Origin: a virus
Reading direction: 5' to 3' (one strand)
Length of the DNA stretch: 42,351 bases
IMG/VR virus record: IMGVR_UViG_3300005617_000504
Span: 1 to 42,351 of that record
The translations under genes were made by a program, and so were the position numbers. The notes under the pieces are model-generated. The model searched no databases and had not been told where the DNA came from. It saw only the letters and a list, made by a program, of their open reading frames with translations. Positions 12,096 to 33,696 of this stretch are shown here, piece after piece; within the stretch, counting starts at the first letter, position 1, and every line of letters starts with the position of its first letter.

Positions 12096-12899
12096 TCAGG
12101 TCGTCCATTCGGCGACGTCACCATCGATCTTCACCTTGTCCCCAAACCACTCGCTCAATTTGCCGGCCAGGTTCGGGTCCAGGCTGCTCACGTCGGCATT
12201 CAGGTTCTGATTGAAATCGGCGTCCTGGGCGACCGGCTTTTGGTCGGGCCCAATAACGCCCAGGTCCTCCGCTTCGGCGCGATCGACGTCATCGATCCCC
12301 ATGCCGCTGCCGAAATCAAATGGCGGCCACGGCCGGCCGAACCGACTCAGCTTCGTCCAGACTGGATCATTCTTCAGCGCGATCATGCGCCCATCAAAGA
12401 AACGGCCGCCGGCGGCGCGCCAACGTTCCGGCCAATTCTCGCGTGGAGCCCTGCGCGATTCGATCCGGAGGAATTCCTGCGCCGGGAACGCATCGAGCAG
12501 CTCGGGATCCTGCCCGATTTTCCAACGGCCGAACTCAGCCGCGTCCTGTGTCTGGAAATCATAGATGAGCTCGAGCCGCCGCCAGCTGGTGATATCAGTG
12601 ATATCGCCGGTGTCGCCTTCAGGCGCGCCCAGGGCCTGGCGCATCTCACTCACGAACTTCGAGCGGTCCATGAACGCGCGCGCCGGATTGTCGCGGCCCA
12701 GCGTGCTCCATTCCTTGAGTTTATCCTGGAACGTTTGCACCGTGCGCAGATCATCGACGCCGGCGGAGAAGAACGAGCGCTCGCGGATGGATAGATCGAG
12801 CGCTTCCCAGTCCTTCGTGCGCAATTTGGAGGCGACGGCCGTTTTGCCGGCCAGCCGGTCCACGGCTTCTTCGAACGGTTGGATGACGATATCAGGCAT
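12096..12899 (-). CDS. Head morphogenesis protein (Mu gp30/F-like)
   Basis: The product has 267 residues and matches the SPP1 gp7/Mu F type of minor head protein, which sits near the portal and takes part in head assembly. Visible features are the helical N-terminal half (VRTVQ-like KLKEWSTLGRDNPARAFMDR), the RLELIYDFQTQDAAEFGRW segment and the C-terminal WPPFDFGSGMGIDDV patch. In Mu this gene follows the portal gene directly; here it lies about 7.6 kb further downstream, beyond the capsid and three fibre-like genes. Confidence 0.7.
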   Translation of the reverse strand: MPDIVIQPFEEAVDRLAGKTAVASKLRTKDWEALDLSIRERSFFSAGVDDLRTVQTFQDKLKEWSTLGRDNPARAFMDRSKFVSEMRQALGAPEGDTGDITDITSWRRLELIYDFQTQDAAEFGRWKIGQDPELLDAFPAQEFLRIESRRAPRENWPERWRAAGGRFFDGRMIALKNDPVWTKLSRFGRPWPPFDFGSGMGIDDVDRAEAEDLGVIGPDQKPVAQDADFNQNLNADVSSLDPNLAGKLSEWFGDKVKIDGDVAEWTT

Positions 12900-13540: not shown

Positions 13541-14400
13541 TGCCGGTTGTAAACCTCTTGCACGTTATAGACCGCCTGGTAGTAAGCAGCCTGCTTCTCA
13601 TTCGGAATGCCGAAACCAAAGCAGTGATAGCTCAAAGCCCGGTCAGTCCACAGCGACGGGTTTCCCGCGCTCGACATCTCCGCGTGAACGATCACTTGCC
13701 CGCCCGCCAGTGCGCCCGCCGCAGCCGCCGCGCTGATCAGAATCGAAGCGCCGTTCTTGTAAATCGCCCTGGCATCAGAACGCCGCGTCGTGACGTAGAA
13801 ACCTCTCCCGGTTGTGTCCGCGACGGAAACCTGATTGGCCACCGTGCCGAGTTCAAGATATGTCGTGTTCGCGTAGGAAATTGGAAATCCTACGATTGTC
13901 GGTCCAACTGAGTAGGCGATGCCCATGCAGTAACCGGACTGCGACGAAGCCGTCCGGTTATAGACCGCCATGTGAAGGTTCGTGATGCTGGTCAACCCCG
14001 ACAGCCCCATTCCAGGCGACGGTGAATTCGGCACCAGATATTTTGTCGTCGTGTTGCCGGTCAACCCGGTAGCTTCCGCGTAGTCAGTTGAAACGAACGC
14101 TACCAGTTGATCGGGAGCGACCATCGTGCTGAACCAATCAACAATGATCGGGATGCACATTGCATTGGTCTGATCTCCCAAATAGATATTTGCCCTGCCA
14201 AGGTAACGGCGCACGTCCCATTTCCGCGTCTGCTGCATGAAGCGAGTGCCAGTCCGGTAGGCTTTACCGGTGATTGTTCCGCTGTTCGTGCCCACGCGCA
14301 CGCGCCACGCTTCCGCCTCCCAGTTGTAGGTGGACACCGGCGGGATTGCTGCGCTCGCGCAGACGACGCTCAGCAGCAGCCAAGGAAGGAAGCGTTTCAT
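13537..14400 (-). CDS. Exported fibre- or lectin-like protein
   Basis: The product has 287 residues. It begins with a clear Sec signal peptide (MKRFLPWLLLSVVCASA, cleavage near residue 17-18) followed by a beta-rich body. The C-terminal end (…FGFGIPNEKQAAYYQAVYN) is of a type seen at the end of concanavalin-like domains in tail-tip proteins of environmental phages. It overlaps the preceding fibre gene by 4 bp. A signal peptide is unusual for a virion protein and suggests export by the host cell. Confidence 0.6.
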   Translation of the reverse strand: MKRFLPWLLLSVVCASAAIPPVSTYNWEAEAWRVRVGTNSGTITGKAYRTGTRFMQQTRKWDVRRYLGRANIYLGDQTNAMCIPIIVDWFSTMVAPDQLVAFVSTDYAEATGLTGNTTTKYLVPNSPSPGMGLSGLTSITNLHMAVYNRTASSQSGYCMGIAYSVGPTIVGFPISYANTTYLELGTVANQVSVADTTGRGFYVTTRRSDARAIYKNGASILISAAAAAGALAGGQVIVHAEMSSAGNPSLWTDRALSYHCFGFGIPNEKQAAYYQAVYNVQEVYNRQ

Positions 14401-15908
14401 CGTTGAATGTTCAGGTTCGGAGTTCCGACCAAGGTCGAGTTGGTTGTCAGGTCGGTGTGCAGATAGATGTAGGAGACGGCATTGGCCTGCGTTTTGATTG
14501 TCGGTTGGCCGCCTGTGCCGCCGTCCTCCCATCCGACCACGCTGTTTGTCAGCTTCACCGTGTAGCCGCCAGTGCCGTCCTGCTGAAAGCAAACCGTGTA
14601 GGTCTTATAAGCGGTCTTGGCAGGAAGATTCGAGAAGGTTGAACTTCCGAGCAGACAGTTATTCGTCACCAAGAGATAGAACGATGCGCCGTTGGTTGTG
14701 CAATCCAGTCCGGTGATGTTCGTACCGCTCCAACCCAAAGCAGTCACGTCCGTCGTGACTCCGCTGCCGCTGCCGGTTGCTGTCAGCGTGCCGTCGTTTG
14801 ATAGCGTCAAGCCACTCAACGTCGCGTTGGTGACCGTGCCGTTCGTTAGAGCCACCAGCACCGCGGGCAATGGAATGTTCTGCAACGTGAATGTTCCATT
14901 TGTCAGAATCGTGATGCTGTTTGAAATCGTGATATGGCCGCCTTTGAGCACCGTGACGTTATTGGTCTGGACGACAATCGTGGTGTAGGTGTTCGTTCCC
15001 ACGCTGCCGTCGTTGCGGGTCATCCAGACCGGCAGCCCGTTCGTCATCGTCAGCGCCTGCCCGTTTGTTCCCGCTCCGAGATTGCGAAGGTGAGTCCCGT
15101 CGTAATAGTAAACATCGCCCGCCGCTGCGCTGAGCGCGCCGAGATCTTTGACGAGTGCCGAGAATCGGTTCGTGTCGAGCGTCCCACTGCCGATCTTGGC
15201 CGCGTCGAGCGATGGCAGATCCGCGGCGATGAGCGCCCGCAAGCTGGCCGCGCCAGTCGTGCCATCGGGAGTCGCGAGCACAAGATTCGAGGTTTGCCCA
15301 CCTGCCGCCGTCACCGCCAACAGCCCACTTGTCGTCACCGGGCTGCCTGACACCGACAACCACGACGGGACCGTCAAACCAACGCTCGTCACCGACCCTC
15401 CAGACCCGGTTGCCGATAGTGTTGTGCCGTCGAATGCGACCCCGGACCCGATTACCACCGCCGAGAGATTCGTGCCACTGTCAGTCCGGACCAACTTGCC
15501 AGGACCGACAACCAACGGCTTTGCATTGGCGTTGAACGTCACCGTTCCAACACTGAGCGGCCCGGTGATCGTCGCGCTGCTATCGCCAGCCGCGAATGAA
15601 ATCGCTGGGCCAACCTTGAAAATTTGGTTGTCATTGTCCCAAGTCAAAGCGCTACTGAACCCGATGCCGTTCGTGCCGATCGCAAATGGTATTCGCCCGT
15701 CCGTATAAGCCGCGCTCTGGCCGAAATGCAGCGTGCTGCCGCTTTTGACCAAGCCGTTGCCAGCGGGAACGATTATGAGATTCAATGCATTGGAATTGGC
15801 GGGGAAAAAGTTGGTTGGCGCGACGACGGCGCCGTTGGTATCCACGCTCACGCTGCGGACCTGTGCAAAAAGGGCGATAGGCAAGAGGCACCAGGCGATG
15901 GGGAGCAT
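14397..15908 (-). CDS. Tail-fibre-like protein with signal peptide
   Basis: The product has 503 residues. After a hydrophobic leader (MLPIAWCLLPIALFAQ) the protein is Thr/Ser/Gly/Asn-rich and repetitive, with the segment SLRALIAADLPSLDAAKIGS typical of phage tail fibres, and many short beta repeats (TNGTFTLQNIPLPAVLVAL, TNATLSGLTLSND). It probably forms a trimeric beta fibre. The leader is encoded by a heptamer repeat tract (15873-15903). ATG 15908 is chosen; the upstream 22 codons come from another intergenic repeat. A receptor-binding role is plausible, but the leader raises the possibility of cell-surface display instead. Confidence 0.65.
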   Translation of the reverse strand: MLPIAWCLLPIALFAQVRSVSVDTNGAVVAPTNFFPANSNALNLIIVPAGNGLVKSGSTLHFGQSAAYTDGRIPFAIGTNGIGFSSALTWDNDNQIFKVGPAISFAAGDSSATITGPLSVGTVTFNANAKPLVVGPGKLVRTDSGTNLSAVVIGSGVAFDGTTLSATGSGGSVTSVGLTVPSWLSVSGSPVTTSGLLAVTAAGGQTSNLVLATPDGTTGAASLRALIAADLPSLDAAKIGSGTLDTNRFSALVKDLGALSAAAGDVYYYDGTHLRNLGAGTNGQALTMTNGLPVWMTRNDGSVGTNTYTTIVVQTNNVTVLKGGHITISNSITILTNGTFTLQNIPLPAVLVALTNGTVTNATLSGLTLSNDGTLTATGSGSGVTTDVTALGWSGTNITGLDCTTNGASFYLLVTNNCLLGSSTFSNLPAKTAYKTYTVCFQQDGTGGYTVKLTNSVVGWEDGGTGGQPTIKTQANAVSYIYLHTDLTTNSTLVGTPNLNIQR

Positions 15909-15970
15909 CCGTGCTAATCCGTGAAATCCGTGTCTCGCTCGATACGGTGCTAATCTGTGAGATCCGTGTT
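15909..15970. repeat. AGACACGGATTTCACGGAT-family repeat, two copies
   Basis: Two imperfect tandem copies read CTAATCCGTGAAATCCGTGT and CTAATCTGTGAGATCCGTGT on the plus strand. They fill the junction between two fibre genes. Other copies are at 16590-16618, 17278-17349, 22498-22556, 24022-24056, 24600-24632, 27385-27502, 30375-30403, 31062-31083 and 32325-32357. Confidence 0.7.
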
Positions 15971-16588
15971 TCATGATTCGCCTGGGATAACGATGTTGAT
16001 CTGCTCGAACTCGGGCGGGCCGGCTACGTTCAATGTGTGATAGAGCCCGGTGTCGGTGTTCTTGAACTGCAGGTTGCCATTTTTGAGCCGGTAATTGTTG
16101 CCATAGATCGGGACCAGGCCGACCACAGCGATCGCCAGATCACCGGGTTGATCGAGTTGGAGCTGCTCCTGGCCGACTGCGCCGACCACCCACAGCGTAT
16201 GATACAAACCGGTATCGATGTTTTTGAGCTGCAGTTTGCCGGCGTTGTATTGGTAATTGGTCCCGCTCACCGGCAGAAACGTGGCCGGGACGTACACTGG
16301 CGACGTCGGCGCGGAGATGATCATCAGATCCCGGATATCGGCCGTGCCATCGCTTTCGGGGACCTGGATCCTGAATTTGTCGCGATTGTTGGTGCCGACT
16401 TGCACCAGATAAATCCCATGATCGAGCACCTGGCTGATCGCGCCATCCTCGTCAGCGACCACAGTGATGATCGGCGCGGTGAGAACGCCGAGCCCATCAA
16501 TAGCCGGGTTGGTTTCGCACAAGAACTTGACGGCTGTGCTCGCACGCGGCTGGTCCGCAGCGTCAATGAATGTGCCGGTTACGGTCAT
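15971..16588 (-). CDS. Fibre or baseplate-like protein with internal duplication
   Basis: The product has 205 residues. The N-terminal third (MTVTGTFIDAADQPRASTAV) looks like an Ig-like or prealbumin-type beta domain. The rest contains two copies of one unit, NYQYNAGKLQLKNIDTGLYH and NYRLKNGNLQFKNTDTGLYH, each followed by a similar strand pair ending in a Gln/Glu-rich strand and Pro-Gly. Such duplications are common in phage fibres and adhesins. No signal peptide is present, unlike the next two genes. It is the first of the three fibre-type genes. Confidence 0.55.
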   Translation of the reverse strand: MTVTGTFIDAADQPRASTAVKFLCETNPAIDGLGVLTAPIITVVADEDGAISQVLDHGIYLVQVGTNNRDKFRIQVPESDGTADIRDLMIISAPTSPVYVPATFLPVSGTNYQYNAGKLQLKNIDTGLYHTLWVVGAVGQEQLQLDQPGDLAIAVVGLVPIYGNNYRLKNGNLQFKNTDTGLYHTLNVAGPPEFEQINIVIPGES

Positions 16589-16589
16589 T

Positions 16590-16618
16590 TAGACACTGAT
16601 TTCACGGATTAACACTGA
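16590..16618. repeat. AGACACTGATTTCACGGAT-family repeat
   Basis: One copy lies between two late genes and also encodes the last residues (ISVNP) and stop codon of the gene at 16602-16859. Confidence 0.65.
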
Positions 16619-16859
16619 TGGGTTTGTCGTACTTGGATCCACCGCCTTCGTAGTGTTGAATTACTTTGCCGAGCCGCATGCGGGCGTCTTCCAGATGGCG
16701 GTAGGCCAGCGTGACATTGGCAAACAACTCACTCCTCGTTTCCCCGTTCAGAGCTGAACCGTTCAGGACAGAATGTTGCTTCAGCGCGTGAACACGCTTG
16801 GCAGTGCTGTCGATGTCCGAGCGCAACAGATCGCAGACTTCCTTTAGGTCATGCTCCAT
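16602..16859 (-). CDS. Candidate Acb2/Tad1-type cyclic-nucleotide sponge
   Basis: The product has 85 helical residues. The C-terminal half (ELFANVTLAYRHLEDARMRL then GKVIQHYEGGGSKYDK) has the pattern I associate with the Acb2/Tad1 helical-hairpin domain of small phage proteins. In that family the proteins bind cyclic signalling nucleotides and block CBASS or Thoeris immunity. ATG 16859 overlaps the gp36-like gene by 11 bp. The family call is from remembered pattern and is not certain; a generic small helical phage protein is the alternative. The last five residues and the stop derive from an intergenic repeat. Confidence 0.55.
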   Translation of the reverse strand: MEHDLKEVCDLLRSDIDSTAKRVHALKQHSVLNGSALNGETRSELFANVTLAYRHLEDARMRLGKVIQHYEGGGSKYDKPISVNP

Positions 16860-17271
16860 CCTGGTCTCCTGGTTGGAACGTATTGTTCGGTTCTTCAACT
16901 GACGGCTTTTGCGGGGTCACGATATCGCCGGTGGATGGGCTTACGGCCGTGTCGCCTTTGGCCACGCCTTTTAGGAATTCCTCGGCATCGTCGGCGGCTG
17001 GTTTGCGTTGTTCGGCGCTGCTGGTCTGGACGCGTTTGCACAGCCGATAGATCGCGATGTCCACCGCCGGATTAAGCACTTCAGGCGGAAGCCCGGCGGC
17101 ATCGAGCGGGACTTGTTTGCCCACAAACCCGCGCACGTAATCGGTCGTGCGAGCGAGAATGTCCGGGAGCGGATCGCTCTGCCCATCAGCAATGATCTCG
17201 CGATACTTCTCGACCTCAGCATTATTGAGGTCGTTCAGCACCTGCGCGGCGGTGAGAGCGGTCCAAGCCAT
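16849..17271 (-). CDS. Mu gp36-like head-tail connector (DUF1320 type)
   Basis: The product has 140 residues. The front part (LNDLNNAEVEKYREIIADGQ, then VRGFVGKQVPLDAAGLPPEV and DIAIYRLCKR) matches the helical pattern of DUF1320 proteins such as Mu gp36, thought to be adaptor proteins at the head-tail joint. The last 50 residues are low-complexity and acidic. It lies downstream of the capsid gene, as in Mu, but one exported protein gene intervenes. The end overlaps the Acb2/Tad1-like candidate. Confidence 0.65.
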   Translation of the reverse strand: MAWTALTAAQVLNDLNNAEVEKYREIIADGQSDPLPDILARTTDYVRGFVGKQVPLDAAGLPPEVLNPAVDIAIYRLCKRVQTSSAEQRKPAADDAEEFLKGVAKGDTAVSPSTGDIVTPQKPSVEEPNNTFQPGDQDGA

Positions 17272-17277
17272 CAGATT

Positions 17278-17349
17278 TTCGAGACACGGATTTCACGGAT
17301 TCTCACGGAGCGATGAAGCCTCTCCGTGAAAATCCGAGTTAATCGGTGT
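17278..17349. repeat. Inverted pair of AGACACGGATTTCACGGAT-family repeats
   Basis: A forward copy (GAGACACGGATTTCACGGAT, 17284 on) and a reverse copy (GAAAATCCGAGTTAATCGGT near 17326) face each other between the gp36-like gene and the exported beta protein gene. The pair could form a hairpin in RNA. Confidence 0.55.
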
Positions 17350-17838
17350 CTAGTTATTCACCGACCATGAGATGGAATTCGTGATCGCATTGGTGAGCGC
17401 GGTAGTGATCGTTCCCAATCGCCAGTAAGCGACGTTGTTGAACGTCGAAGCCGGGAAATTGGTGAACGCGATGTAATTGGTCGTCGCTGCGGTCAGGTTC
17501 ACCGTCAGGGTATAGGGCGTTGCAGCGGCCCAATTGGTGCCATCGTTCGAGACCTGGAAGTTCAGCGTGACGGCATTGGTTGTGGTGGCCGGGGTGAATG
17601 ACGCGAGAATGCCCAGCCCGCGATCCTTGCGCGCCGCTACAGCGGTGGAGTTCACCGTATAGGTGGTGTTCGAGGAGAGCGGACTGGTTGTCGTGATCGT
17701 GCCGCCGCTCGTGGGTGTGACTTGGGCGTGGACGTCCAGCGGTGGGATGAATAGGGGCGCAAATAGCCCAATGGTCAGCAATAGACAGACAATGCCGGCC
17801 ATGAGCAGGGCGAACTGATTTTTCAGGATTCGTTTCAT
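17350..17838 (-). CDS. Exported or membrane-anchored beta protein, unknown
   Basis: The product has 162 residues. A long hydrophobic leader (about residues 8-33, LLMAGIVCLLLTIGLFAPLF) is followed by a Thr-rich beta domain (TTNAVTLNFQVSNDGTNWAA) that resembles small Ig-like or decoration domains. It sits immediately after the capsid gene, where a head decoration protein would be expected, yet the leader predicts export or membrane anchoring. Either the leader is cleaved before virion assembly in an unusual way, or the protein works in the host envelope. Confidence 0.5.
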   Translation of the reverse strand: MKRILKNQFALLMAGIVCLLLTIGLFAPLFIPPLDVHAQVTPTSGGTITTTSPLSSNTTYTVNSTAVAARKDRGLGILASFTPATTTNAVTLNFQVSNDGTNWAAATPYTLTVNLTAATTNYIAFTNFPASTFNNVAYWRLGTITTALTNAITNSISWSVNN

Positions 17839-17932: not shown

Positions 17933-18874
17933 TTAGCTCAGATCGATGCGTTTGGCGGCGATGGTGCTGGTTTGTGCGATGTGCTCGCTCCAATCGATCA
18001 CGTGCGCGTCGTAAAACCCGCTCGGCGCCATCCACGATCGCACTGATTGCACTCCACCAGGGCCGACGGTGAAGTTCTTGAATGCGCTCGGGTCATACTG
18101 CGTGGGGGTGGGCATGCTGTAGGTGACCAGCACCTGGCCGGCGAGCAACCGCGCCTTGACCTTGGCCTGGCCGAGCTGCGCGGAGTTGTACGTGATCGCG
18201 TAAGCGGCCACATCCACCGGGATCGCGAGCACGCTGTTGAGCTGCTCGAGCGTGATGCCGCCCACTTGCACGCCGACTGCGCGGGCCTTGGCCTTGGGAT
18301 GATTGCGCAGGGTACGCCAGGCGGTGAGGCTCATGGTGACCTTGATGCCTTCCGTGCTGCCACAGGCGGTGGCGAGGTCATCGATGATCTTATCCAGTTG
18401 ATCGATCGGATCCACATCAGGATTGCTCCAGACTCCGATCGGCGCGGCTTCGGCTACTAGCGCGGCCAGAACGATGTCGCATACGTTGCGGACGTGACTG
18501 AGCGCGGTGACGTTGAGGAGGGCGCGGATCTTACCTTCATCCAGGAGTTGCTGGCTTACGGAATTGTCCGGGCCGGCCATGTTCCGTTCTTCCTTGTCCA
18601 CGGTCACCTCGAGCGCCTGCGGTTTGCAGTTGTAGAAGGCGTCGGTGGCCTCGAACATAATGCGTTTGGCTTCGCCGCCCAAGGGGCGTGCGGTGCTGTA
18701 CGTCTGGAACGCATTGAGGTCGTCGAACTTTTTGTATTGGCCGGTGGATCCGCCCACGACAACTGTCGGGGCGAGCCGCTCGGCTAGTTCCATCGCTCGG
18801 CGCAGGTCGTTCATGTGCCCCTGCGCAAACGTGGTGAGCTGCTGGTTCATTACTGCGGTAGCTTCTCGTGCCAT
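17933..18874 (-). CDS. Major capsid protein (HK97-like, by context)
   Basis: The product has 313 residues, the usual size for an HK97-fold capsid. It follows the protease/scaffold and DUF2190 genes, the Mu order for I, gp35-like and T. Typical features are a helical N-terminal arm, a central LDKIIDDLATACGSTEGIKV spine-helix-like stretch followed by TAWRTLRNHPKAKA (the pattern seen in many capsids where a residue-numbered 'row' helix precedes a beta strand), and a C-terminal FYDAHVIDWSEH. Forms the icosahedral shell. The exact Pfam family is not determined by eye. Confidence 0.75.
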   Translation of the reverse strand: MAREATAVMNQQLTTFAQGHMNDLRRAMELAERLAPTVVVGGSTGQYKKFDDLNAFQTYSTARPLGGEAKRIMFEATDAFYNCKPQALEVTVDKEERNMAGPDNSVSQQLLDEGKIRALLNVTALSHVRNVCDIVLAALVAEAAPIGVWSNPDVDPIDQLDKIIDDLATACGSTEGIKVTMSLTAWRTLRNHPKAKARAVGVQVGGITLEQLNSVLAIPVDVAAYAITYNSAQLGQAKVKARLLAGQVLVTYSMPTPTQYDPSAFKNFTVGPGGVQSVRSWMAPSGFYDAHVIDWSEHIAQTSTIAAKRIDLS

Positions 18875-18913: not shown

Positions 18914-19306
18914 TTACGGCAGGATGACCGGGGCCAATGTGGCGGCCTCGAACAAGTCGCCCGCGGCGGCATCTTCCAAAGCCACGCCTACCACAACGCG
19001 CGCGGTGCCGGCGGCTTCGTCGGTCACGACTGTGCCGTCGTTTTTCTGTTCGAGCCGATCGAACTGCTTGATCGCTCCGCCGGCTTTGAGCCGGACCGAG
19101 CCGGATAACGCGCCGAGGACCCCGACGCTTGAGTTTTTCGCCGCCACTTCGCCATCCAGGATGACGCCGAAGGCGGGCACGGTTTTGGAATCGTTCAGCG
19201 CGTCCACGCCGGCGGCGGCTTTAACGAGGTAACCTTCCTTGCCCGAGTAATCGACGCCGGTAACAAGGATGACGTTGTTTTCTCTGCTGAATAATGCTGA
19301 GCCCAT
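18914..19306 (-). CDS. DUF2190-type head protein
   Basis: The product has 130 residues. The sequence (ILVTGVDYSGKEGYLVKAAA, then AFGVILDGEVAAKNSSVGVL and VVGVALEDAAAGDLFEAATL) follows the pattern of DUF2190 proteins, small beta-rich proteins next to the capsid gene in many phages and thought to decorate or stabilise the head. ATG 19306 is chosen; the longer upstream frame is a shadow of the neighbouring gene. Located between protease/scaffold and capsid, as in Mu-like phages. Confidence 0.65.
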   Translation of the reverse strand: MGSALFSRENNVILVTGVDYSGKEGYLVKAAAGVDALNDSKTVPAFGVILDGEVAAKNSSVGVLGALSGSVRLKAGGAIKQFDRLEQKNDGTVVTDEAAGTARVVVGVALEDAAAGDLFEAATLAPVILP

Positions 19307-19373
19307 AAGTTGGTTGATGGTTGTTCCGCGTAAAAGTCTGGCGCTCCTGGCGCCAGCCTCACGCGGCTTTGGG

Positions 19374-19892
19374 TTAATCTGTGATACCGAACAGTTCGGG
19401 TTTGTCGTTGCGCACGGCGTTCCAGGCTTCGCCGTAGGTGCAACGATTGCGCAATTGATATTCGCGCACGGTGCTTTCGCGTTCCTTGGCGGTCTTCGCT
19501 TCGTCGCCGGCACCCGCCTCTCCTGGCGGGGTGCTGTCCTTGCGGTTCAGCAACGGCTTATCTTTCCCGGCCTTGTCGTTTGCCATTGTGGGTTTGGCGA
19601 CGATGTCTTTGAGGAACTCGATGCGATCAGCGCGGTTCTTCATGTTGCTCAACACGGGCTTGAGCTTGGCGCGTTTGCCGTCGTCTTTGATTCCGTGCGA
19701 GTCCAGGTCGGCATCGATCTGTTCGGTGAGAAGTTCGCCGTTGGTCTTCTCCAGATCGGTGACGCGGTTTTTGAGCTGGGGCAGTTCGGCTTTGATGCCG
19801 TCCCGCTCGGTGATGATGCTGGTCACGGCCGCGAGGATCGCGTCTTCGCTCGCCTCGGCGGACAGACCAAGCTTTGCGGCTACACTGTTCAT
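19374..19892 (-). CDS. Nested scaffold protein (Mu gpZ-like)
   Basis: Inside the protease gene an in-frame ATG at 19892 is preceded at 3 bp by AAAGGA, a better ribosome site than most starts in this operon. It would make a 172-residue protein (MNSVAAKLGLSAEASEDAIL…) with the helical, charged composition of a scaffold and a long coiled-coil-like stretch (LPQLKNRVTDLEKTNGELL). In Mu, Z is made in just this way from within I. Supported by the site and by family precedent. Confidence 0.6.
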   Translation of the reverse strand: MNSVAAKLGLSAEASEDAILAAVTSIITERDGIKAELPQLKNRVTDLEKTNGELLTEQIDADLDSHGIKDDGKRAKLKPVLSNMKNRADRIEFLKDIVAKPTMANDKAGKDKPLLNRKDSTPPGEAGAGDEAKTAKERESTVREYQLRNRCTYGEAWNAVRNDKPELFGITD

Positions 19893-20504
19893 GGGTCCTT
19901 TCGTTGTTTGTTTGCTGCCCGCCTGGTGGCCCGTCCGGCCAGGACCCAGGCGATTACTGAGAGGGACCATCCCTCTCAAATTGGGTTTGTTCGTAAGCCC
20001 CGCGCCGCTCAATAGCAGCGGGCGGATTTTCATCTCGATCGTTTTGCGTTTCGCGTTCTTCAGCGGTGGCTCGATGAATTCCCAGCCTTCTGGCGGGAAT
20101 ACGCCGGACAGGAACCGGAATCGGCCGTTGCGGACCGCGGCCTCGCCTGTGTCGCTCCAGCGGATCTGCCACCAGGCGCCGGCAGACCGATTCTCCCAAG
20201 CTGTGATCCAGCCGGCGGCTTCGCTGGATTTGTTCAGGTCATCTGAGAAATGATCGAAATCAATGAGCAGCCCGGTGAAGTTCGGCTTGGCGACCAGGGC
20301 GTCGAAACTGTTCTTCATCGCGGTCAACGCTTTGTCATCGAGGATCTGCAGGGCCTTGCGGACCGTGCCGTCCGGCAGTTTCTCGATGTTCGGGAATTGG
20401 CCAATGGGCAGCCCGTGATACCAGCCATCGGCCGGGAGCGTGAACTTGCCGTCGGCGCCGCGGTTGGTGAGCGGCAGTAGTAAACTTGAATAGTCCTGGT
20501 TCAT
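19374..20504 (-). CDS. Mu gpI-like prohead protease with C-terminal scaffold
   Basis: The product has 376 residues, similar to the Mu I protein. The N-terminal half (LLPLTNRGADGKFTLPADGW, GLLIDFDHFSDDL, AGAWWQIRWSDTGEAAVRNG, FLSGVFPPEG) is the Mu-like protease domain, which cuts scaffold during head maturation. The His of DFDH and the Ser of FLSG are candidate catalytic residues. The C-terminal half is helical and charged, like a scaffold. Starts in an ATGA overlap with the portal gene. A nested start at 19892 would give scaffold alone. Confidence 0.8.
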   Translation of the reverse strand: MNQDYSSLLLPLTNRGADGKFTLPADGWYHGLPIGQFPNIEKLPDGTVRKALQILDDKALTAMKNSFDALVAKPNFTGLLIDFDHFSDDLNKSSEAAGWITAWENRSAGAWWQIRWSDTGEAAVRNGRFRFLSGVFPPEGWEFIEPPLKNAKRKTIEMKIRPLLLSGAGLTNKPNLRGMVPLSNRLGPGRTGHQAGSKQTTKGPMNSVAAKLGLSAEASEDAILAAVTSIITERDGIKAELPQLKNRVTDLEKTNGELLTEQIDADLDSHGIKDDGKRAKLKPVLSNMKNRADRIEFLKDIVAKPTMANDKAGKDKPLLNRKDSTPPGEAGAGDEAKTAKERESTVREYQLRNRCTYGEAWNAVRNDKPELFGITD

Positions 20505-22105
20505 ATCAGGGTGGTTTTTTTGCGCAGGTCGTCCACGACGGCGTTGGTCATCGATTCGGCTAACACTTCCTGGAGCGCGGCCGCGTACTCCGGCCGGGCG
20601 CGAACCTGGTCCGCCAGGTCGGGCACGTCTTTGAGGAGTTGCTCGAGTTCGCGTTGGAATTGGTCCTGATCAGTCGTTTGCAGGAGGGCTTCCAGCCGTT
20701 GGAAGATGGGTTGCAGACTGGTTGCACGGGCGCGGATGACGCGCTGCATGCCGGTGGACTGCTGGGCCGTTGATCGGTTGCGGAGTCCCAAGCCTGAAGG
20801 CGGGGCGCCTTCAGGAGCACCCGAGGCGGGCGCGCTCCCCGGAGCAGGCTGCGGCTTCAGTTCCAGCGTATAACCGGTCTTTTCTTTCAGCTCTTCGATG
20901 TCGCGCTGATATCCGGCCTGGGCGAGTTTGAATGTATTTTCAACTTCTTCTTTGATGTCCGCTTCGTCGCGTGGACAGAGTTCCCAATAAGCCAGGGCCG
21001 GTTCGCCTGCGTGCTCGCGCGAGAGAACGTCGGCATCGAATTGCTTCTGGAAAACTTCGTTCAGCTCGGCGGCTTCGCCTTCGGCGATCTCGTCGAACGT
21101 ATCTTCGTGCGCGCCGCCGGCCAGTGTGCCGCTGCCGCTCTCGGTGAGCATGGTGAGCTTGCCGCCTGTGCCGGCCAAGACCAGCTCCTCATCCTGATAC
21201 CGGATATGATCGCGGAACGGGTTCACGCCGCGGGGTTGATCGTTCGGTTTGTAATCGCTCCCGGCCGGTAACGCGCCGCTGCCGCCGGCAGCGATCCGCG
21301 TGGCGGCGTCTTCGTAGTCCTTTTCTTTGCCTTGCTGGATGTTGCCGGGCATCAGGACGACGCCGCTGGGGATGCCGTAGATCTCGATGAAACCGTCCCA
21401 ATCTTTTTGGGAGAGGTTCTTGCGCAGGTAACAGAGCAGGCCAACCTCATCGATGGCCATGTCGCACTCGCGAATGATGAATCCAGCCGGGTCAATGACG
21501 TTGGTTTTGAGCGCATCGAAGGTGCTGGCGCGGCTTTCTTTGTTGTACGCCCATGGGCCGTACAACCCGTCGCGCACCCAGGTCCATTGATCGAGTGGTT
21601 CGAGATGGATAATGTCGCCGTCGGGGCTGCGGTGCTTTTGCAAATGGCTGAACCCGCGGAACTCGGCCAGGGCCAGGAACGCGATCGCGCCGCTGAGGTT
21701 GTCAATGGCGTCATAGGCGGCGCGCAGGGTTTGTTTCTGGGCGTCGGCCTGGGCCTGGGTGGATCCGAGGGGCAGCTCGGCCACGGTCTTGATGTCCCAA
21801 TCCAGCTTTTGCAAGGCGGCCCGGCGCCGGATGATGAGCGCCCGATGTGTGGCGTTGCGTTTCTCGACCAGGCGGTACAGCCATTGCAGATCCGCGAATT
21901 CACCGCGTTGCCCGGCTTCCATGAGCGTGACGGATCTGGCAACGGTCAGGCCACGAAGTGGGTTGTACCATTCGCGCCAGCGATTTGTGCCACGGACTAG
22001 GCGCTCCATATCCAGCGCCGAGCCGGGGATCGCGGCCTGGACGCGGTTCAGGAGCGGCCAGGCGGCACTGACCAGGGCGGATTTGAGGTTGCGGAAAAAG
22101 GTCAT
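20501..22105 (-). CDS. Portal protein (Mu gp29-like, DUF935)
   Basis: The product has 534 residues. The order and wording (LTVARSVTLMEAGQRGEFAD, LQWLYRLVEKRNATHRALII, RRAALQKLDW, then DGFIEIYGIPSGVVLMPGNI) match the DUF935 portal family. The portal is the dodecameric channel for DNA entry and exit at one head vertex. ATG 22105 overlaps the stop of the zinc-finger gene (ATGA); longer upstream frames are shadows of that gene. A hairpin repeat (20793-20815) is translated near the C-terminus (PEGAPPSGLGLR). Confidence 0.85.
   Translation of the reverse strand: MTFFRNLKSALVSAAWPLLNRVQAAIPGSALDMERLVRGTNRWREWYNPLRGLTVARSVTLMEAGQRGEFADLQWLYRLVEKRNATHRALIIRRRAALQKLDWDIKTVAELPLGSTQAQADAQKQTLRAAYDAIDNLSGAIAFLALAEFRGFSHLQKHRSPDGDIIHLEPLDQWTWVRDGLYGPWAYNKESRASTFDALKTNVIDPAGFIIRECDMAIDEVGLLCYLRKNLSQKDWDGFIEIYGIPSGVVLMPGNIQQGKEKDYEDAATRIAAGGSGALPAGSDYKPNDQPRGVNPFRDHIRYQDEELVLAGTGGKLTMLTESGSGTLAGGAHEDTFDEIAEGEAAELNEVFQKQFDADVLSREHAGEPALAYWELCPRDEADIKEEVENTFKLAQAGYQRDIEELKEKTGYTLELKPQPAPGSAPASGAPEGAPPSGLGLRNRSTAQQSTGMQRVIRARATSLQPIFQRLEALLQTTDQDQFQRELEQLLKDVPDLADQVRARPEYAAALQEVLAESMTNAVVDDLRKKTTLI
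20793..20815. repeat. GCG-GGG-CGC hairpin inside the portal gene
   Basis: A perfect 10-bp stem (CCTGAAGGCG / CGCCTTCAGG) with a GGG loop, of the same design as the other GCG-nnn-CGC hairpins. It is in frame and encodes part of a low-complexity linker. Confidence 0.55.
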
Positions 22106-22488
22106 GGCTGAGCGTGAAGCATCTGGAGCATGGCGCGTGGAGCGTGGGAGGGGGTATGGACATCCATCCTTATCGTTCCAATGTCCGTAACTGCCTGTTC
22201 CGTGCGAAATTTTGATGGTTTTATCGATGGCGGCGGTGGGGATGAAATCCGGGGATGATCCTTCTCCCATCGGCGTGTGCGGCAAAGGTCCGAACAAAAG
22301 GCGGCGCCAGGGGTTTTGGGCGTGAAGAGGCCGGTGCATTCGCAACAGTGCCGTGGCTGAGGCCGGAAGATCCGCGGGCGCTCCGCTTTCCACCCATGGA
22401 TCCGGCAGAGGTCCGAGCAAACCTTCTTCGTCGCGCGTTTCGGCGTGAACGGCTTCCCGCAGACCGGGCATGGGATCGGGGTCTTCAT
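22102..22488 (-). CDS. Double zinc-finger protein
   Basis: The product has 128 residues. Two similar zinc-binding units are visible: CPVCGKPFTPKRATKKVCSD then LCR, and CCECTGLFTPKTPGAAFCSD then LCR. Each has a CxxC pair and a CxxxC pair, so one metal per unit, and they look like an internal duplication. The C-terminal third is disordered. It lies between large terminase and portal and overlaps the portal start in an ATGA junction. Binding to DNA or to terminase is possible but not shown. Confidence 0.65.
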   Translation of the reverse strand: MKTPIPCPVCGKPFTPKRATKKVCSDLCRIHGWKAERPRIFRPQPRHCCECTGLFTPKTPGAAFCSDLCRTRRWEKDHPRISSPPPPSIKPSKFRTEQAVTDIGTIRMDVHTPSHAPRAMLQMLHAQP

Positions 22489-22497
22489 GGGTGGACA

Positions 22498-22556
22498 CTG
22501 TGAAATCCGTGTCTCATCCGGCTCAGTGTTAATTCGTGAAATCCGTGTCTCATCCA
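22498..22556. repeat. Two AGACACGGATTTCACGGAT-family repeats (reverse)
   Basis: Two direct copies, GTGAAATCCGTGTCTCATCC at 22500 and 22537, separated by about 17 bp. The second contains the stop codon of the large terminase gene. Confidence 0.7.
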
Positions 22557-24016
22557 GCCAGGCTCCTTTCGCGGCGATCGGCGATCACCCGGCTGTGCCT
22601 GGTGTTCTCCGGGACAATGATTCGGCCGACGACGCTGGGCATCGAGCCGGCCCGGTTGCATAGCGCCAGGCCAGTGCAGCGATCGGCGTGGCCGTCTTCA
22701 GTGTGCGGCGCGCGATAGGTGACTGTGCCGGCGGCCGTCACGACTCGGTTCATCGAGTGCAGGTCCTCGCGAATGATGCGGTTGATCGGGATCAACCATT
22801 TGCGCCCTTCGAATTTCATCTTGAGTTTGCTGAACAGGTCAACCTTGATGGGGTTGCTGATCGTCACTAATTCGATCTTGCCGAACCTGTCCGCTTCCAG
22901 TTTCCATTCGCCGAACTCTGCGACCAGGTAATCGCCCAGGCCAACGCCAGGCCCCGTGTAATCCAAACAGACCCGGCGCGCTTTCTTGATGCGCGGCCTT
23001 AAGTGCTCGACCTGGTCCGGCGTGCTCATATTTTCCAGGCAAAGAACTTCTTTGGTGATCTGCATGTCCGCGACGGCTTCGGCTGACCAGGCGACGGTCA
23101 GATTTTTTTTACGGCCGAAATCGATGCCGATGTCCACCGGGAAGGGCGATGTGCTCAGCCAATATTCGAAATCGATTGCCTCAGTGGCTTCGGCGCTTTC
23201 GCAGAGGCCAATGAGTTCGTAGGGCAAGAGGACGGTGGCTTTGTCGAGGAATTCCAGCGGGTCATATTCAATTGCCCAACCTTCAGGATCATCGAGTGCG
23301 GCGCGGAGTTCCTCGATGTCGATGGGCAGGCCCTGGGCGACGGCATCGGTAATAGTGATCTTGTGGCAGCTCCATTTGGCGTCCGGCCCGCCAAAGTTTT
23401 TCGACCATAGATCGTGAAATTTGTTGCCTTTGCCGTTCGGCGTGGAGATGAGGCGGCACTTCTTCTGCCCGCCCCGCAGCGGATTGGTAATGCTGGGCAG
23501 GATGGCGCGCCAGGTGGCATCCGGATTTTCAAAGAAGGCAAACTCGGTGAGCAGGATATTCGCGGAGAAACCACGGACAGTGTCGGGTTTGCCAGGGACG
23601 GCGATGACGCGTGAGCCGTTCGGGAAAACGATGGTGCTGGATTTGAGGAGTGTTTCGGACCCGCCTTCGCGTTCTTCGATGACGTCCTCGATGGCGAGCT
23701 TGTAGGCCTCCGTCCATTCGCGCCATTTGAGAAACGATTCAACGGCCTGGCGTTCGGATGGCGCGGCAATGAGCCATGAGGTTTTGTCACCGTTCAACTC
23801 GCGTTGGTAACAGTCACGGATGCCTTCCTCAGCGCTGGTGAAGTCTTTGCCGACCTGGCGCGCCATGAGCCCGATCTTAAAACGCGAATCGTCATCCGCC
23901 CATTTGCGTTGATAAGGCAGGAGCAAATCGCGCGGGGAAGGATCGGGACCGGCATTGGGGCTTTGCGCATTGGCCTTTCTGCCAGTCCCGCCCTCGTTCT
24001 GGTTTGGTGAAATCAT
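22550..24016 (-). CDS. Terminase large subunit (Mu gp28-like)
   Basis: The product has 488 residues. The motor half has a Walker A-type segment (ARQVGKDFTSAEEG, residues 52-65), a Walker B-type ILLTEFAFFE (Glu158) and a coupling motif LISTPNGKG. The nuclease half begins VDIGIDFGRKKNLTVAW (Asp295/Asp299) and has the later acidic residue in VCLDYTGPGVG. The enzyme cuts phage DNA and pumps it into the head; in Mu-type phages it cuts in host DNA beyond the ends. ATG 24016 is chosen, since the longer frame upstream is a shadow of the gp27-like gene. Confidence 0.88.
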   Translation of the reverse strand: MISPNQNEGGTGRKANAQSPNAGPDPSPRDLLLPYQRKWADDDSRFKIGLMARQVGKDFTSAEEGIRDCYQRELNGDKTSWLIAAPSERQAVESFLKWREWTEAYKLAIEDVIEEREGGSETLLKSSTIVFPNGSRVIAVPGKPDTVRGFSANILLTEFAFFENPDATWRAILPSITNPLRGGQKKCRLISTPNGKGNKFHDLWSKNFGGPDAKWSCHKITITDAVAQGLPIDIEELRAALDDPEGWAIEYDPLEFLDKATVLLPYELIGLCESAEATEAIDFEYWLSTSPFPVDIGIDFGRKKNLTVAWSAEAVADMQITKEVLCLENMSTPDQVEHLRPRIKKARRVCLDYTGPGVGLGDYLVAEFGEWKLEADRFGKIELVTISNPIKVDLFSKLKMKFEGRKWLIPINRIIREDLHSMNRVVTAAGTVTYRAPHTEDGHADRCTGLALCNRAGSMPSVVGRIIVPENTRHSRVIADRRERSLAG

Positions 24017-24021
24017 CAGCT

Positions 24022-24056
24022 CAATTCCGTGATAATCCGTGTAATCCGTGTCTAGC
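24022..24056. repeat. AGACACGGATTTCACGGAT-family repeat (reverse)
   Basis: CCGTGATAATCCGTGTAATC then CGTGTCTAG, lying between large and small terminase genes. It encodes the final stop of the small terminase gene. Confidence 0.6.
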
Positions 24057-24597
24057 TCATGCCGAAGATGGCGCGCAGGCGCGTCTGCTTTTCTTCGGGT
24101 GAAAGCTTCTTGTCGCTGGTGACCACCTCCGCTTCCTCTGCTTGCTTGGCTTTCTGCTCGAGGATGGCCAGGCGGCGTTCTTCCAGGCCCCGATCGGCGC
24201 GTTGTTCCTGCACTTTCAAATAGGCCATCACCGGTTTCATGCAGTCGCTGGCGGTCTTGAGCAGCTCGGGGTTGGCTGTCGCCTGCAGGCTGAGTTGCAT
24301 GATCAGGACCCGATGCAGTTTGATCAGGGTCTCGACTTCCGGCGGGGCGTCCTTGGCGAATTGTTTCTCCACCTGTTTCACCGCTGCAGCGCCGGAGCTG
24401 ATCCGGTCCAGGACTCGGTCCTGCAATCGTTGTTGCTGGCGTTTCTCCCACCAGTCCGAGAGTAAGGATGGCGAGACTGAAAGTTTGTAGCGCTCGAGCA
24501 AACGGCCGCAGGCTTCCTGCAGGGTGACCTTGTCGTCGAACCATGCCTCCAGCTCCGCGCTGTGCGGATCCAATTTCGATTTTTTCTCTTTGGGCAT
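24052..24597 (-). CDS. Small terminase subunit-like protein (Mu gp27, DUF3486)
   Basis: The product has 181 helical residues. The N-terminus (KLDPHSAELEAWFDDKVTLQ then EACGRLLERYKLSVSPSLLS) is a helix-turn-helix region typical of DUF3486, followed by long helices (LIKLHRVLIMQLSLQATANP). In Mu-type phages gp27 is the probable DNA-recognition subunit working with gp28, which lies directly downstream. A repeat copy occupies the ribosome-binding region; no Shine-Dalgarno is visible before ATG 24597. Confidence 0.78.
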   Translation of the reverse strand: MPKEKKSKLDPHSAELEAWFDDKVTLQEACGRLLERYKLSVSPSLLSDWWEKRQQQRLQDRVLDRISSGAAAVKQVEKQFAKDAPPEVETLIKLHRVLIMQLSLQATANPELLKTASDCMKPVMAYLKVQEQRADRGLEERRLAILEQKAKQAEEAEVVTSDKKLSPEEKQTRLRAIFGMS

Positions 24598-24765
24598 TCA
24601 AGACACGGATTTCACGGATGAACACGGATGCCGCCCAGCGCCAGCCCGCCCAGATCGGGCTGGTCGCTGTCTTTGCAATTCGCCGCGCAGACCCAACAAC
24701 CTGGGACGATTGTCTCGCAGCACGTGAACTGCGTAACGGCCGCTCCGCAGTTCAATCGGTTTCAT
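24598..24765 (-). CDS. Small basic protein, doubtful
   Basis: The frame from ATG 24765 gives 55 residues (MKPIELRSGRYAVHVLRDNR…) and ends in a stretch coded by an intergenic repeat (24600-24632). A TTG at 24786 would make an overlap with the preceding stop. Position in a tightly packed operon favours a real gene, but the composition is repeat-like, so it may be spacer. Confidence 0.3.
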   Translation of the reverse strand: MKPIELRSGRYAVHVLRDNRPRLLGLRGELQRQRPARSGRAGAGRHPCSSVKSVS

Positions 24766-27344: not shown

Positions 27345-27698
27345 GGTCTGTTTGGGGTAACCGCAGATGAACGCTGATGAACGCAGATCGGGACTGACAC
27401 TGATTTCACGGATGGGCACGGATGGGGGCGGGAGCGGGTTCCGTGATAATCCGTGGAATTCGTGTCTGCGAGGCTTCCGTGATAATCCGTGGAATCCGTG
27501 TCTGAAATCGACGGCTCGGATGTTGGTGGATGATCTGTTGGCTCCTGGACCGAGCCGCGAGCTGCAGGCAGCAGCGCCTCCTGTGAAGCTCTGCAAAACC
27601 GTTTGGGATGTTCAGCCAACATGCGAGACAAGTCTCGCATGGGGCGCCACCCCACGGTGGGAATTAGGAGAAGGGCTGAGGGCTAAAGGCTGAAGGAA
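27345..27698. other. Repeat-filled intergenic region
   Basis: This 354-bp gap holds no supported gene. It contains one forward and two reverse copies of the AGACACGGATTTCACGGAT family (27385-27502), short 8-mers AACGCTGATG/AACGCAGAT, and a perfect 10-bp hairpin CATGCGAGAC-AA-GTCTCGCATG (27620-27641) just downstream of the dTMP kinase gene that could end transcription, although no T-run follows. Confidence 0.55.
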
Positions 27699-30212: not shown

Positions 30213-30376
30213 GTGGCGGCCTGGCTGCTCGCGGGTTGGCGCGCGCATACGCGCGCGGGCGGGAACAGGTCCGCCGGCTTAATCAGGCGCGTGTGGATGA
30301 GATGAAGGCAAACGTGCTGAACGAGCTGCGCAAGCATCGCGCTGAGACGCGAAAGAATTGGAAGGGCTCACGATGA
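30209..30376 (+). CDS. Small basic protein, unknown
   Basis: The product has 55 residues (MSGGLAARGLARAYARGREQ…), Arg-rich and helical. It begins in an ATGA overlap with the regulator gene and ends in another with the following frame, so it looks like a coupled member of the early operon. No family is recognised. Confidence 0.45.
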   Translation: MSGGLAARGLARAYARGREQVRRLNQARVDEMKANVLNELRKHRAETRKNWKGSR

Positions 30377-30684
30377 GACACGGATTTCACCGATCAACAC
30401 GGATGGGCCTATCACCTATCGCCCATCGCCTATTGCCTGATGTTGATTTTGGCTGGGGTAAGGAGTCGGCGATCAATCAGGCCCGGTTGACTCAGCCGGG
30501 CCAGTACGACTTTCGCTGGATTTTCTCTCAGCCAAGACCTTGCTGGTCGGGCATTCCCTCACCGCGAAGCGCGACAACCACCCGCACCCCAGCCCACCAC
30601 GGCCCGCGCAGCGCCTGGCTGCGCGCGGCCAGGGCGGGAAATATGAGTCACCGGCGAGACGCCGGTGCCGCCCTGTCCAAATGA
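30373..30684 (+). CDS. Repeat-bearing frame, possible gene
   Basis: A 103-residue frame starts in an ATGA overlap and ends in an ATGA overlap with the next gene. Its first 22 residues are coded by an AGACACGGATTTCACCGAT repeat and a heptamer tract (30375-30437), and its C-terminus by a GCG-AGA-CGC hairpin (30649-30667). Only the middle (FGWGKESAINQARLTQPGQY, DFRWIFS) looks protein-like. It may be a small gene extended by repeats, or spacer kept in frame. Confidence 0.35.
   Translation: MRHGFHRSTRMGLSPIAHRLLPDVDFGWGKESAINQARLTQPGQYDFRWIFSQPRPCWSGIPSPRSATTTRTPAHHGPRSAWLRAARAGNMSHRRDAGAALSK
30407..30437. repeat. Heptamer tandem repeat (CCTATCG)n
   Basis: CCTATCA, CCTATCG, CCCATCG and CCTATTG units lie in the early operon inside the 30373-30684 frame. 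This is the reverse-strand form of the GGCGATA tracts of the late operon. Confidence 0.65.
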
Positions 30685-30901: not shown

Positions 30902-31063
30902 ATGACTTTGGAAATGGCTTTTGGGTTGTTGTTGTCGGCCGGGTTGTTGACCTGGGGGTTGCTGCGCTGGATCCGGTTGATCGAGGCGGTGGCTAAATCA
31001 TGGTTGCCCAGGCGCCGGCACTCGCGCCTGGTCGAAAAGTTGTTTTCCAGGATGCTCAAATGA
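30902..31063 (+). CDS. Small membrane protein
   Basis: The product has 53 residues: one membrane helix (AFGLLLSAGLLTWGLLRWI) and a basic tail (WLPRRRHSRLVEKLF). It overlaps the next small membrane gene by an ATGA junction. The pair resembles two-gene small membrane modules in temperate phages; the function is unknown. Confidence 0.5.
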   Translation: MTLEMAFGLLLSAGLLTWGLLRWIRLIEAVAKSWLPRRRHSRLVEKLFSRMLK

Positions 31064-31224
31064 AGACACTGATTTCACGGATGGTGAGCTTCAATTTCGT
31101 GCTGATCGGCGCTTGGGTGCAGGGCTCGATTTTGCCGTGGAATGTGTTCGGTCTGGTCTTGTTCATGGTCGTCTTTTTTCTCGGGTATTTGGCGGTTCTT
31201 TACATGGAGCGAATCAAGCGATGA
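31060..31224 (+). CDS. Small two-span membrane protein
   Basis: The product has 54 residues with two hydrophobic stretches (FNFVLIGAWVQGSIL and FGLVLFMVVFFLGYLAVLYM). The first eight codons (MKTLISRM) are made of an AGACACTGATTTCACGGAT-family repeat. It is in ATGA overlap on both sides. The function is unknown. Confidence 0.5.
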   Translation: MKTLISRMVSFNFVLIGAWVQGSILPWNVFGLVLFMVVFFLGYLAVLYMERIKR

Positions 31225-32326: not shown

Positions 32327-32370
32327 AGACACGGATTTCACGGATTAACACGGATCCATTGAGCCCATGA
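32323..32370 (+). repeat. AGACACGGATTTCACGGAT repeat forming a 15-codon frame
   Basis: The repeat is inserted between two genes so that it creates a mini-frame MKTRISRINTDPLSP. Its ATG overlaps the stop of the upstream gene and its stop overlaps the start of the downstream gene. It may let ribosomes pass across the repeat by reinitiation. Confidence 0.5.
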
Positions 32371-32780: not shown

Positions 32781-33696
32781 TCGACGCAAAGGAGAGGCCA
32801 CCGGTTTCTCAGGAAAACGTCCGCCAGACGAGACCGAGACCAAGCAGCTCCCCCCTCAACACCGCGAATCTAACGGGTTTTTGCCTGTTTGCAAGGAGGG
32901 CGATGACCAGGTCGCCAGGCGTTTGACGGAGATGTTTCGCGATGCGCAGGCGGCCCTCTGCCGGTTCGTCGCCTTCGGATTGTACGCGTTCGAGGTCAAG
33001 GAGGGTCTCAAACACGGCGAGTTTGGCCCCTGGATAAAGGAGCATTGCCCGGATATCCCATGGCGGACGGCGCAGCACTATATGGCTATCACCAAGGGAC
33101 TTCTGTATGCTTGCGGGTCTCTGGTCGAGGATTACATTCAAATGCGCAAGCGTTGCGCATTTGCCCAGGGCGGGGAATTGATCCTCAAAGACCCCGCGGA
33201 TCTTCCTGAGTTAGTCCGGCCGCTGGCGGCCAAGATGCGATCGCTGATCGAGGGCAAAACGGCGCGCCAACTTTTCCTGGAATTCAAGACGGCTGATGAG
33301 CATGACGGCGAGCCGATCGTCCGGCGGCCTGGCATCGGCGATAAGCAGTGGGAGAAGTGGATGTGGGAGTTCCACGTGGAATTGATCACGGATGGCATTG
33401 TGCCTGGACGGCGTGAGGTGCCATCGAAGTTGCTGACCGAATTCGCCAAATACCAAATCTCCGGCCGCGTCGCGAAGATGTTGTCGCCTGAAGAAGCGGC
33501 CATGATCCGGCGGGAGGAAGTGGGCTTGAAGATCGATGCGCTGATGCGCGCGATGGAGGAGTTGATCGGTGAGGATGGCAATCCGCCGCGGTTGCCGTTG
33601 CTCGATGCGGATCGCGCGCAGCTCGCGCAGCTTGAGGGCCGCAGAATCAAATTGGGTGAGGCGATCAAACTCGCGAATAAGGGGAGGAGAGGATGA
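32770..33696 (+). CDS. DUF3102-like phage protein
   Basis: The product has 308 residues. A good Shine-Dalgarno (GGAGG, 32762-32766) precedes ATG 32770. The part FVAFGLYAFEVKEGLKHGEF, GPWIKEHCPDIPWRTAQHYM then AITKGL follows the DUF3102 pattern of phage and plasmid proteins (helical, with a helix-turn-helix-like WRTAQHYM). The C-terminal half is helical and charged. Placed directly upstream of the transposase with an ATGA overlap, it may assist DNA transactions; the role is unknown. Confidence 0.55.
   Translation: MVLDRRKGEATGFSGKRPPDETETKQLPPQHRESNGFLPVCKEGDDQVARRLTEMFRDAQAALCRFVAFGLYAFEVKEGLKHGEFGPWIKEHCPDIPWRTAQHYMAITKGLLYACGSLVEDYIQMRKRCAFAQGGELILKDPADLPELVRPLAAKMRSLIEGKTARQLFLEFKTADEHDGEPIVRRPGIGDKQWEKWMWEFHVELITDGIVPGRREVPSKLLTEFAKYQISGRVAKMLSPEEAAMIRREEVGLKIDALMRAMEELIGEDGNPPRLPLLDADRAQLAQLEGRRIKLGEAIKLANKGRRG

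Follow-up and report, generated by a model that had tools for sequence, protein, structure and literature searches.

The hairpin gene and its operon

The window, that is the whole stretch of 42,351 nucleotides analysed here (IMG/VR virus record IMGVR_UViG_3300005617_000504), carries a head operon on its minus strand. Starting from the upstream end, profile matches identified the large subunit of the terminase (22550-24625; phrog_2, E 1.2e-31), the portal protein (20501-22498; phrog_113, E 8.6e-22), the head maturation protease (19374-20504; phrog_328, E 3.1e-22), a head scaffolding or decoration protein (18914-19513; phrog_673, E 7.8e-6) and the major head protein (17933-18874; phrog_1005, E 9.7e-33). 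They are followed by a gene encoding a secreted-looking protein of 162 aa (17350-17838), which has a homologue in a second, divergent phage (L083, 6103-6642, minus strand; 49% identity over 123 aa), and by a Mu gp36-like head-tail adaptor gene (16849-17271; PF07030, E 1.9e-7; phrog_195, E 7e-10). The end of the gp36-like gene overlaps by 11 nt the start of the gene studied here (16602-16859, minus strand; ATG at 16859, stop at 16602-16604), whose 85-aa product we call P0001. The next gene downstream (15971-16588, minus strand) may encode a tail protein, considering a weak match (phrog_1718, E 0.0062). The initial annotation had placed the small gene just after gp36 in a late operon, and the overlap confirms that it follows the gp36-like gene. 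Elsewhere in the window, 2 genes of the plus strand (33693-35822 and 35828-36964) resemble by eye those of a MuA-type transposase and a MuB-type ATPase, which would make the virus a Mu-like transposable phage.

We consider the open reading frame of P0001 to be real. Its AlphaFold2 monomer model is a confident helical hairpin (helices 5-28 and 39-70, mean pLDDT 89.3) without a single strand in the 85 residues, in agreement with the helical protein described before. P0001 alone had no relevant match in Pfam, PHROGs, NCBIfam or PDB sequences. In particular, PF24729, the model of the Acb2/Tad1 hairpin, did not match it even at E ≤ 10; therefore, the HMM search suggested with the initial annotation as a check of an Acb2/Tad1-like identity gave nothing for the protein taken alone, and by the refuting criterion set there the identity would fail at the level of the single protein.

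An intergenic repeat at the end of the gene

The gene was also said to have had its tail rewritten by an intergenic repeat. A repeat copy (16591-16619) indeed supplies exactly codons 81-85 (ISVNP) and the stop of the hairpin gene, but the rewriting itself is unproven. The stretch from LEDA to the C-terminus of P0001 measures 30 residues, which is the commonest length class in its family (A1, see below), and the 4 loci from 2 other contigs that cover the gene (L001, L002, L010 and L060) are 100% identical to the window.

The repeat belongs to a short family (around AGACACGGATTTCACGGATTAACACGGAT) found in both orientations and mostly in intergenic gaps of the phage, for example at 15904-15972, 16591-16629, 17278-17350, 22519-22551 and 24022-24054, and also at 24601-24639, 27395-27504, 30376-30414, 31060-31082 and 32327-32365. 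Its 20-nt core occurs 6 times in the window, where 0 matches are expected. With up to 2 mismatches, the repeat was found at 4 places in a single one of the 79 genomes searched from the phylum of G003, a metagenome-assembled genome that also carries an A1 gene, and was absent from 81 genomes of another phylum. Between the gp36-like gene and the 162-aa gene, 2 opposed copies (17278-17350) fold into a strong hairpin (-32.7 kcal/mol, z -5.0). The listed start of the open reading frame at 14397-15974 falls within a further copy (15940-15974), and its true start is therefore probably downstream.

P0001 belongs to a large family

We searched IMG/VR with degenerate DNA patterns for the overlapping peptides RHLEDARM and LEDARMR(x)GK, which recovered 82 and 80 stretches, largely the same loci, while a third pattern had 100 stretches reported. 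As the recovered loci encode alignable proteins, the C-terminal motif singled out in the initial annotation is not a chance pattern. We aligned P0001 with 61 of 72 distinct segments and named the resulting set of 62 sequences A1. The segments left out were identical to P0001 (L001), near duplicates (L059, L090), unrelated by eye (L039, L052), distant (L030) or short at the N-terminus (L009, L014, L034, L053, L058).

Conservation in A1 is concentrated in few places. The second helix contains RHLEDARMRLGK (residues 54-65 of P0001, 16665-16700), with 5 invariant columns (E57, D58, A59, M61 and R62, 62/62), and R13, L51, R54, L56 and G64 are each kept in 61/62 members, R13 (codon at 16821-16823) lying in helix 1. 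The C-terminal tail GGxSxYDK, which reads GGGSKYDK in P0001 (residues 72-79, 16623-16646), is also strongly kept, with G72 in 55/62 and S75 in 56/62 members; position 77 is Tyr in 44/61 and Phe or Trp in 7/61.

A profile of A1 found 148 matching domains at E ≤ 1e-4, duplicates included, among 25,197 open reading frames of 175 loci. In GTDB genomes, A1 was found on 7 contigs, labelled Kiritimatiellia, Bacteroidetes, Verrucomicrobia, "bacterium", Gemmatimonadetes, Fibrobacter and Patescibacteria. On the contrary, tblastn with P0001 and 3 other members gave no match in 50,697 phage records, and screens of cultured phages would therefore miss the family. A1 is a large family, and its known members all come from uncultured phages or metagenome-assembled genomes. 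Our literature search found no paper with the A1 motif strings or with PF24729/DUF7681.

Kinship with the Acb2/Tad1 hairpin

As indicated by its name, PF24729 covers the hairpins of both Acb2 and Tad1 in one Pfam model. When A1 members were scanned singly, 48/62 matched PF24729 at E ≤ 1 (best 2.6e-6), and the next Pfam family was matched by 2/62. Scores above the curated cut-off of 27 bits were obtained for L013 (27.9 bits, E 2.6e-6) and for one further member, found in the L149 record (27.3 bits), while most members stay below it. As these scores are far under the 70.3 of T4 Acb2, A1 is remote and not part of the core of the PF24729 model. A bridge between both groups is provided by L133, which contains ANVTLAIRHLEDA and reaches 41.2 bits with PF24729, the match spanning model positions 2-57 of 58. 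Since L133 was picked through the A1 DNA motif, only its PF24729 score, and not its A1 score, counts as independent. Among 288 Verrucomicrobia-side genomes, PF24729 matched in 4 and A1 in 3; one of those PF24729 matches (L115) is an A1 member, and another (L117), in a long open reading frame, appears fortuitous.

A short amphipathic helix motif could resemble the C-terminal helix of PF24729 by chance, without any homology, and the lack of a match for P0001 itself would fit this explanation. Several results argue against it besides the 2 members above the cut-off and the bridge. A profile made of 14 Acb2 proteins reached at least 6.6 bits in 54 of 101 A1 open reading frames versus 15 of 13,136 others, and among these 15 one (L008:6098-6358) is a canonical hairpin protein. 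In shuffle controls with this profile, 50/62 A1 members scored higher than each of 50 shuffled versions of themselves, and 2 of 2,000 shuffles of P0001 reached its score. Other comparisons were weak, and those by hhalign and of the fold would fit a chance likeness. The hhalign comparison of A1 with Acb2 gave a probability of 6.8% (P 0.005), covering the C-terminal helix only with M61 in register with M75, and other subsets gave P values from 0.0023 to 0.3. In the reverse direction, the A1 profile detected Acb2 open reading frames weakly (L099, E 0.91; L097, 1.8; L094, 3.9), and among PDB sequences it matched mostly coiled-coil or helical proteins and no Acb2 or Tad1 chain. Structure comparison was unspecific: T4 Vs.4 matched the P0001 model with a Z of 7.6, at rank 38 of the listed PDB entries and among unrelated helical hairpins, and the viral structure library BFVD had no match to the model below E 0.43. 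An arrangement of 2 long antiparallel helices, as predicted here, is common, and the comparison of folds gives no preference to Acb2. Taken together, sequence evidence makes it very probable that the hairpin domain of A1 is homologous to that of Acb2/Tad1, and a chance likeness appears highly improbable.

For helix 1, a correspondence seen by eye (IDLINSIK of Acb2 with IEAINGLR of L013) was not reproduced by MAFFT, and we therefore do not claim that R13 equals the Lys of Acb2. No description of the role of this Lys (K26) was found in print.

Comparison with Acb2 and Tad1

Acb2 (T4 Vs.4, PaMx33 p26, JBD67 gp34) and A1 are both small phage proteins with a helical hairpin, predicted in the case of A1, and both have a C-terminal helix with the pattern L-A-x-x-x-L-x-x-A-x-M and a basic residue 4 positions further on. 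They differ in residues that matter for the ligand. The N-terminal GY segment of Acb2, in which G7 and Y8 are each conserved to at least 90% among the 14 Acb2 sequences, is missing from P0001 and A1, and T4 Y8 is needed for the binding of cyclic dinucleotides according to PMC12657218. In the register of M75 with M61, F82 of Acb2, a base-stacking residue, corresponds to Q68 of P0001, a position that is Gln in 57/62 A1 members. Unlike Acb2, A1 has an almost invariant ANxxLAYRHLEDA(R/S)MRLGK, a motif far more strictly conserved than that of Acb2, and its GGxSxYDK tail was seen in none of the 14 Acb2 sequences. Tad1, as described in PMC12043709, has an N-terminal beta-sheet domain before 2 long helices. 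A1 is the hairpin only, without this domain, and is set apart from Tad1 by this description. P0001 is thus filed neither as Acb2, as the Tyr and the Phe are missing, nor as Tad1, as there is no beta-sheet domain.

A RyR fusion and genes close to A1

We scanned for PF24729 and for RyR domains in 50 A1-bearing records each, chosen by us from a larger set. A canonical PF24729 protein above the cut-off was found near the A1 gene in 3/50 records, those of L015, L008 and L007, where it scores 61.4, 62.7 and 30.2 bits and lies about 0.3, 1.0 and 1.7 kb from A1, respectively, always on the same strand. The RyR scan revealed a fusion in 1/50 records, in which the L045 protein carries a RyR domain (PF02026, 44.7 versus a cut-off of 27.4 bits) behind its A1 hairpin; a second record holds a sub-threshold copy with a stop. 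We aligned the RyR domain of L045 to gp78 of DyoEdafos (RyDEP) and found H75, W78, H100 and D117 all kept, the 4 ligand or catalytic residues given as those of the RyDEP pocket in a 2026 preprint (PMC13232231), which also describes phage RyR proteins that degrade or sequester 2'cADPR and 3'cADPR and so defeat Thoeris. RyDEP itself has a fold separate from that of A1, and a Pfam search found PF02026 absent from P0001; within A1, the domain was seen in L045.

These results bear on the possibility that A1, although a true homologue of the Acb2/Tad1 hairpin, is no sponge and has some other partner (a host or phage protein, a nucleic acid or a housekeeping nucleotide). The homology evidence would hold in this case too, and such a role would agree with the loss of the Tyr known to bind the ligand and with a different conserved surface. 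As the RyR fusion and the co-localised canonical hairpin genes point instead to immune-signal biology, we regard it as rather unlikely.

Genomic position of A1

The location of the gene among head genes, with its overlap with the gp36-like gene, suggests another explanation. P0001 could be a small morphogenesis protein of the head operon, such as a helper of the head-tail connector or a packaging accessory, that shares a common helical-hairpin fold, and a near-invariant motif stricter than that of Acb2 would fit a structural partner as well. The L083 phage repeats part of the arrangement, with the order major head protein, 162-aa-like protein, gp36-like open reading frame (putative, by eye), another open reading frame and A1. 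Neighbour scans covered 70 of the 99 proteins upstream of A1 genes and 75 of the 101 downstream, and among them were again portal and terminase proteins as well as head-tail adaptors and major head proteins. The position is nevertheless not fixed, since ParB-like, methyltransferase and HNH genes were also among the neighbours and since the A1 gene of L111 lies upstream of the terminase.

Moreover, a counter-defence gene can occupy this very block. The Acb2 of Beetrevirus JBD67 (59.6 bits) is encoded between the major head protein and the head-tail adaptor, the same capsid-gene block in which the window gene lies, and the same family of head-tail adaptor adjoins acb2 in SS2019XII and in a Leptolyngbya phage. 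The acb2 gene of JBD67 is a genetically studied counter-defence gene, as stated in PMC13083879, citing Huiting 2023. Considering also the RyR fusion and the clustering with PF24729 genes, a purely morphogenetic role seems improbable to us.

A proposed immune-signal sponge

On balance, we favour the reading that A1 forms a new branch of the Acb2/Tad1-hairpin superfamily, one that bears a tail, and that it probably acts as a sponge of nucleotide signals. The initial proposal of an Acb2/Tad1 link thus finds support at the level of the family, in the gene neighbourhood and in the RyR fusion, but not in P0001 itself, which remains unmatched, nor in the profile-profile and fold comparisons, which are weak and unspecific. 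As the N-terminal Tyr is missing from A1, naming the protein Acb2/Tad1 proper is too strong, and Acb2/Tad1-hairpin-like fits better.

In the mechanism that we infer, from oligomerisation to ligand binding, ligand identity and anti-defence function, the hairpin protein would be made from the head operon and would assemble into a small oligomer. This oligomer might then sequester a nucleotide-derived immune messenger, either a cyclic oligonucleotide of CBASS or a cADPR isomer of Thoeris, and the capture of the messenger would keep the host effectors off, resulting in counter-defence. As A1 lacks the N-terminal Tyr segment of Acb2 and conserves the GGxSxYDK tail instead, its pocket would be built differently, and the tail possibly stands in for the lost tyrosine. 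Considering the RyR fusion of L045, cADPR-type signals are reasonable first candidates for the ligand. A more specific version, which we put forward as a tentative and somewhat doubtful possibility, is that A1 is a very widespread sponge family of uncultured phages with a rebuilt pocket, in which the GGxSxYDK tail and the helix face carrying RHLEDARMRLGK would bind an ADP-ribose-type or cyclic-nucleotide signal. In L045, the hairpin would capture this signal and the RyR domain would destroy it, in a catch-and-cleave manner.

If A1 members are indeed sponges, a large unnamed family of uncultured phages would provide a set of proteins whose capture of immune signals can be tested. The hairpin-RyR fusion would join the sponge and the signal-cleaving enzyme types in one polypeptide.

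Other A1 proteins

A1 hairpins were also seen in longer proteins. In L073 (151-903, minus strand), one open frame encodes an N-terminal domain that by eye resembles a cysteine-peptidase-like protein of phages, for which Pfam gave no match, followed by an A1 hairpin. The 270-aa protein of L156 (431-1240, plus strand) combines an A1 hairpin with a weak C-terminal match to Multi_ubiq, below the cut-off (E 0.0041). Finally, L121 and L122 are 2 A1-related proteins (AIRHLEDASMRL) of one genome, each lying beside a homologue of the window gene at 12096-12899, which suggests that they belong to related prophages.
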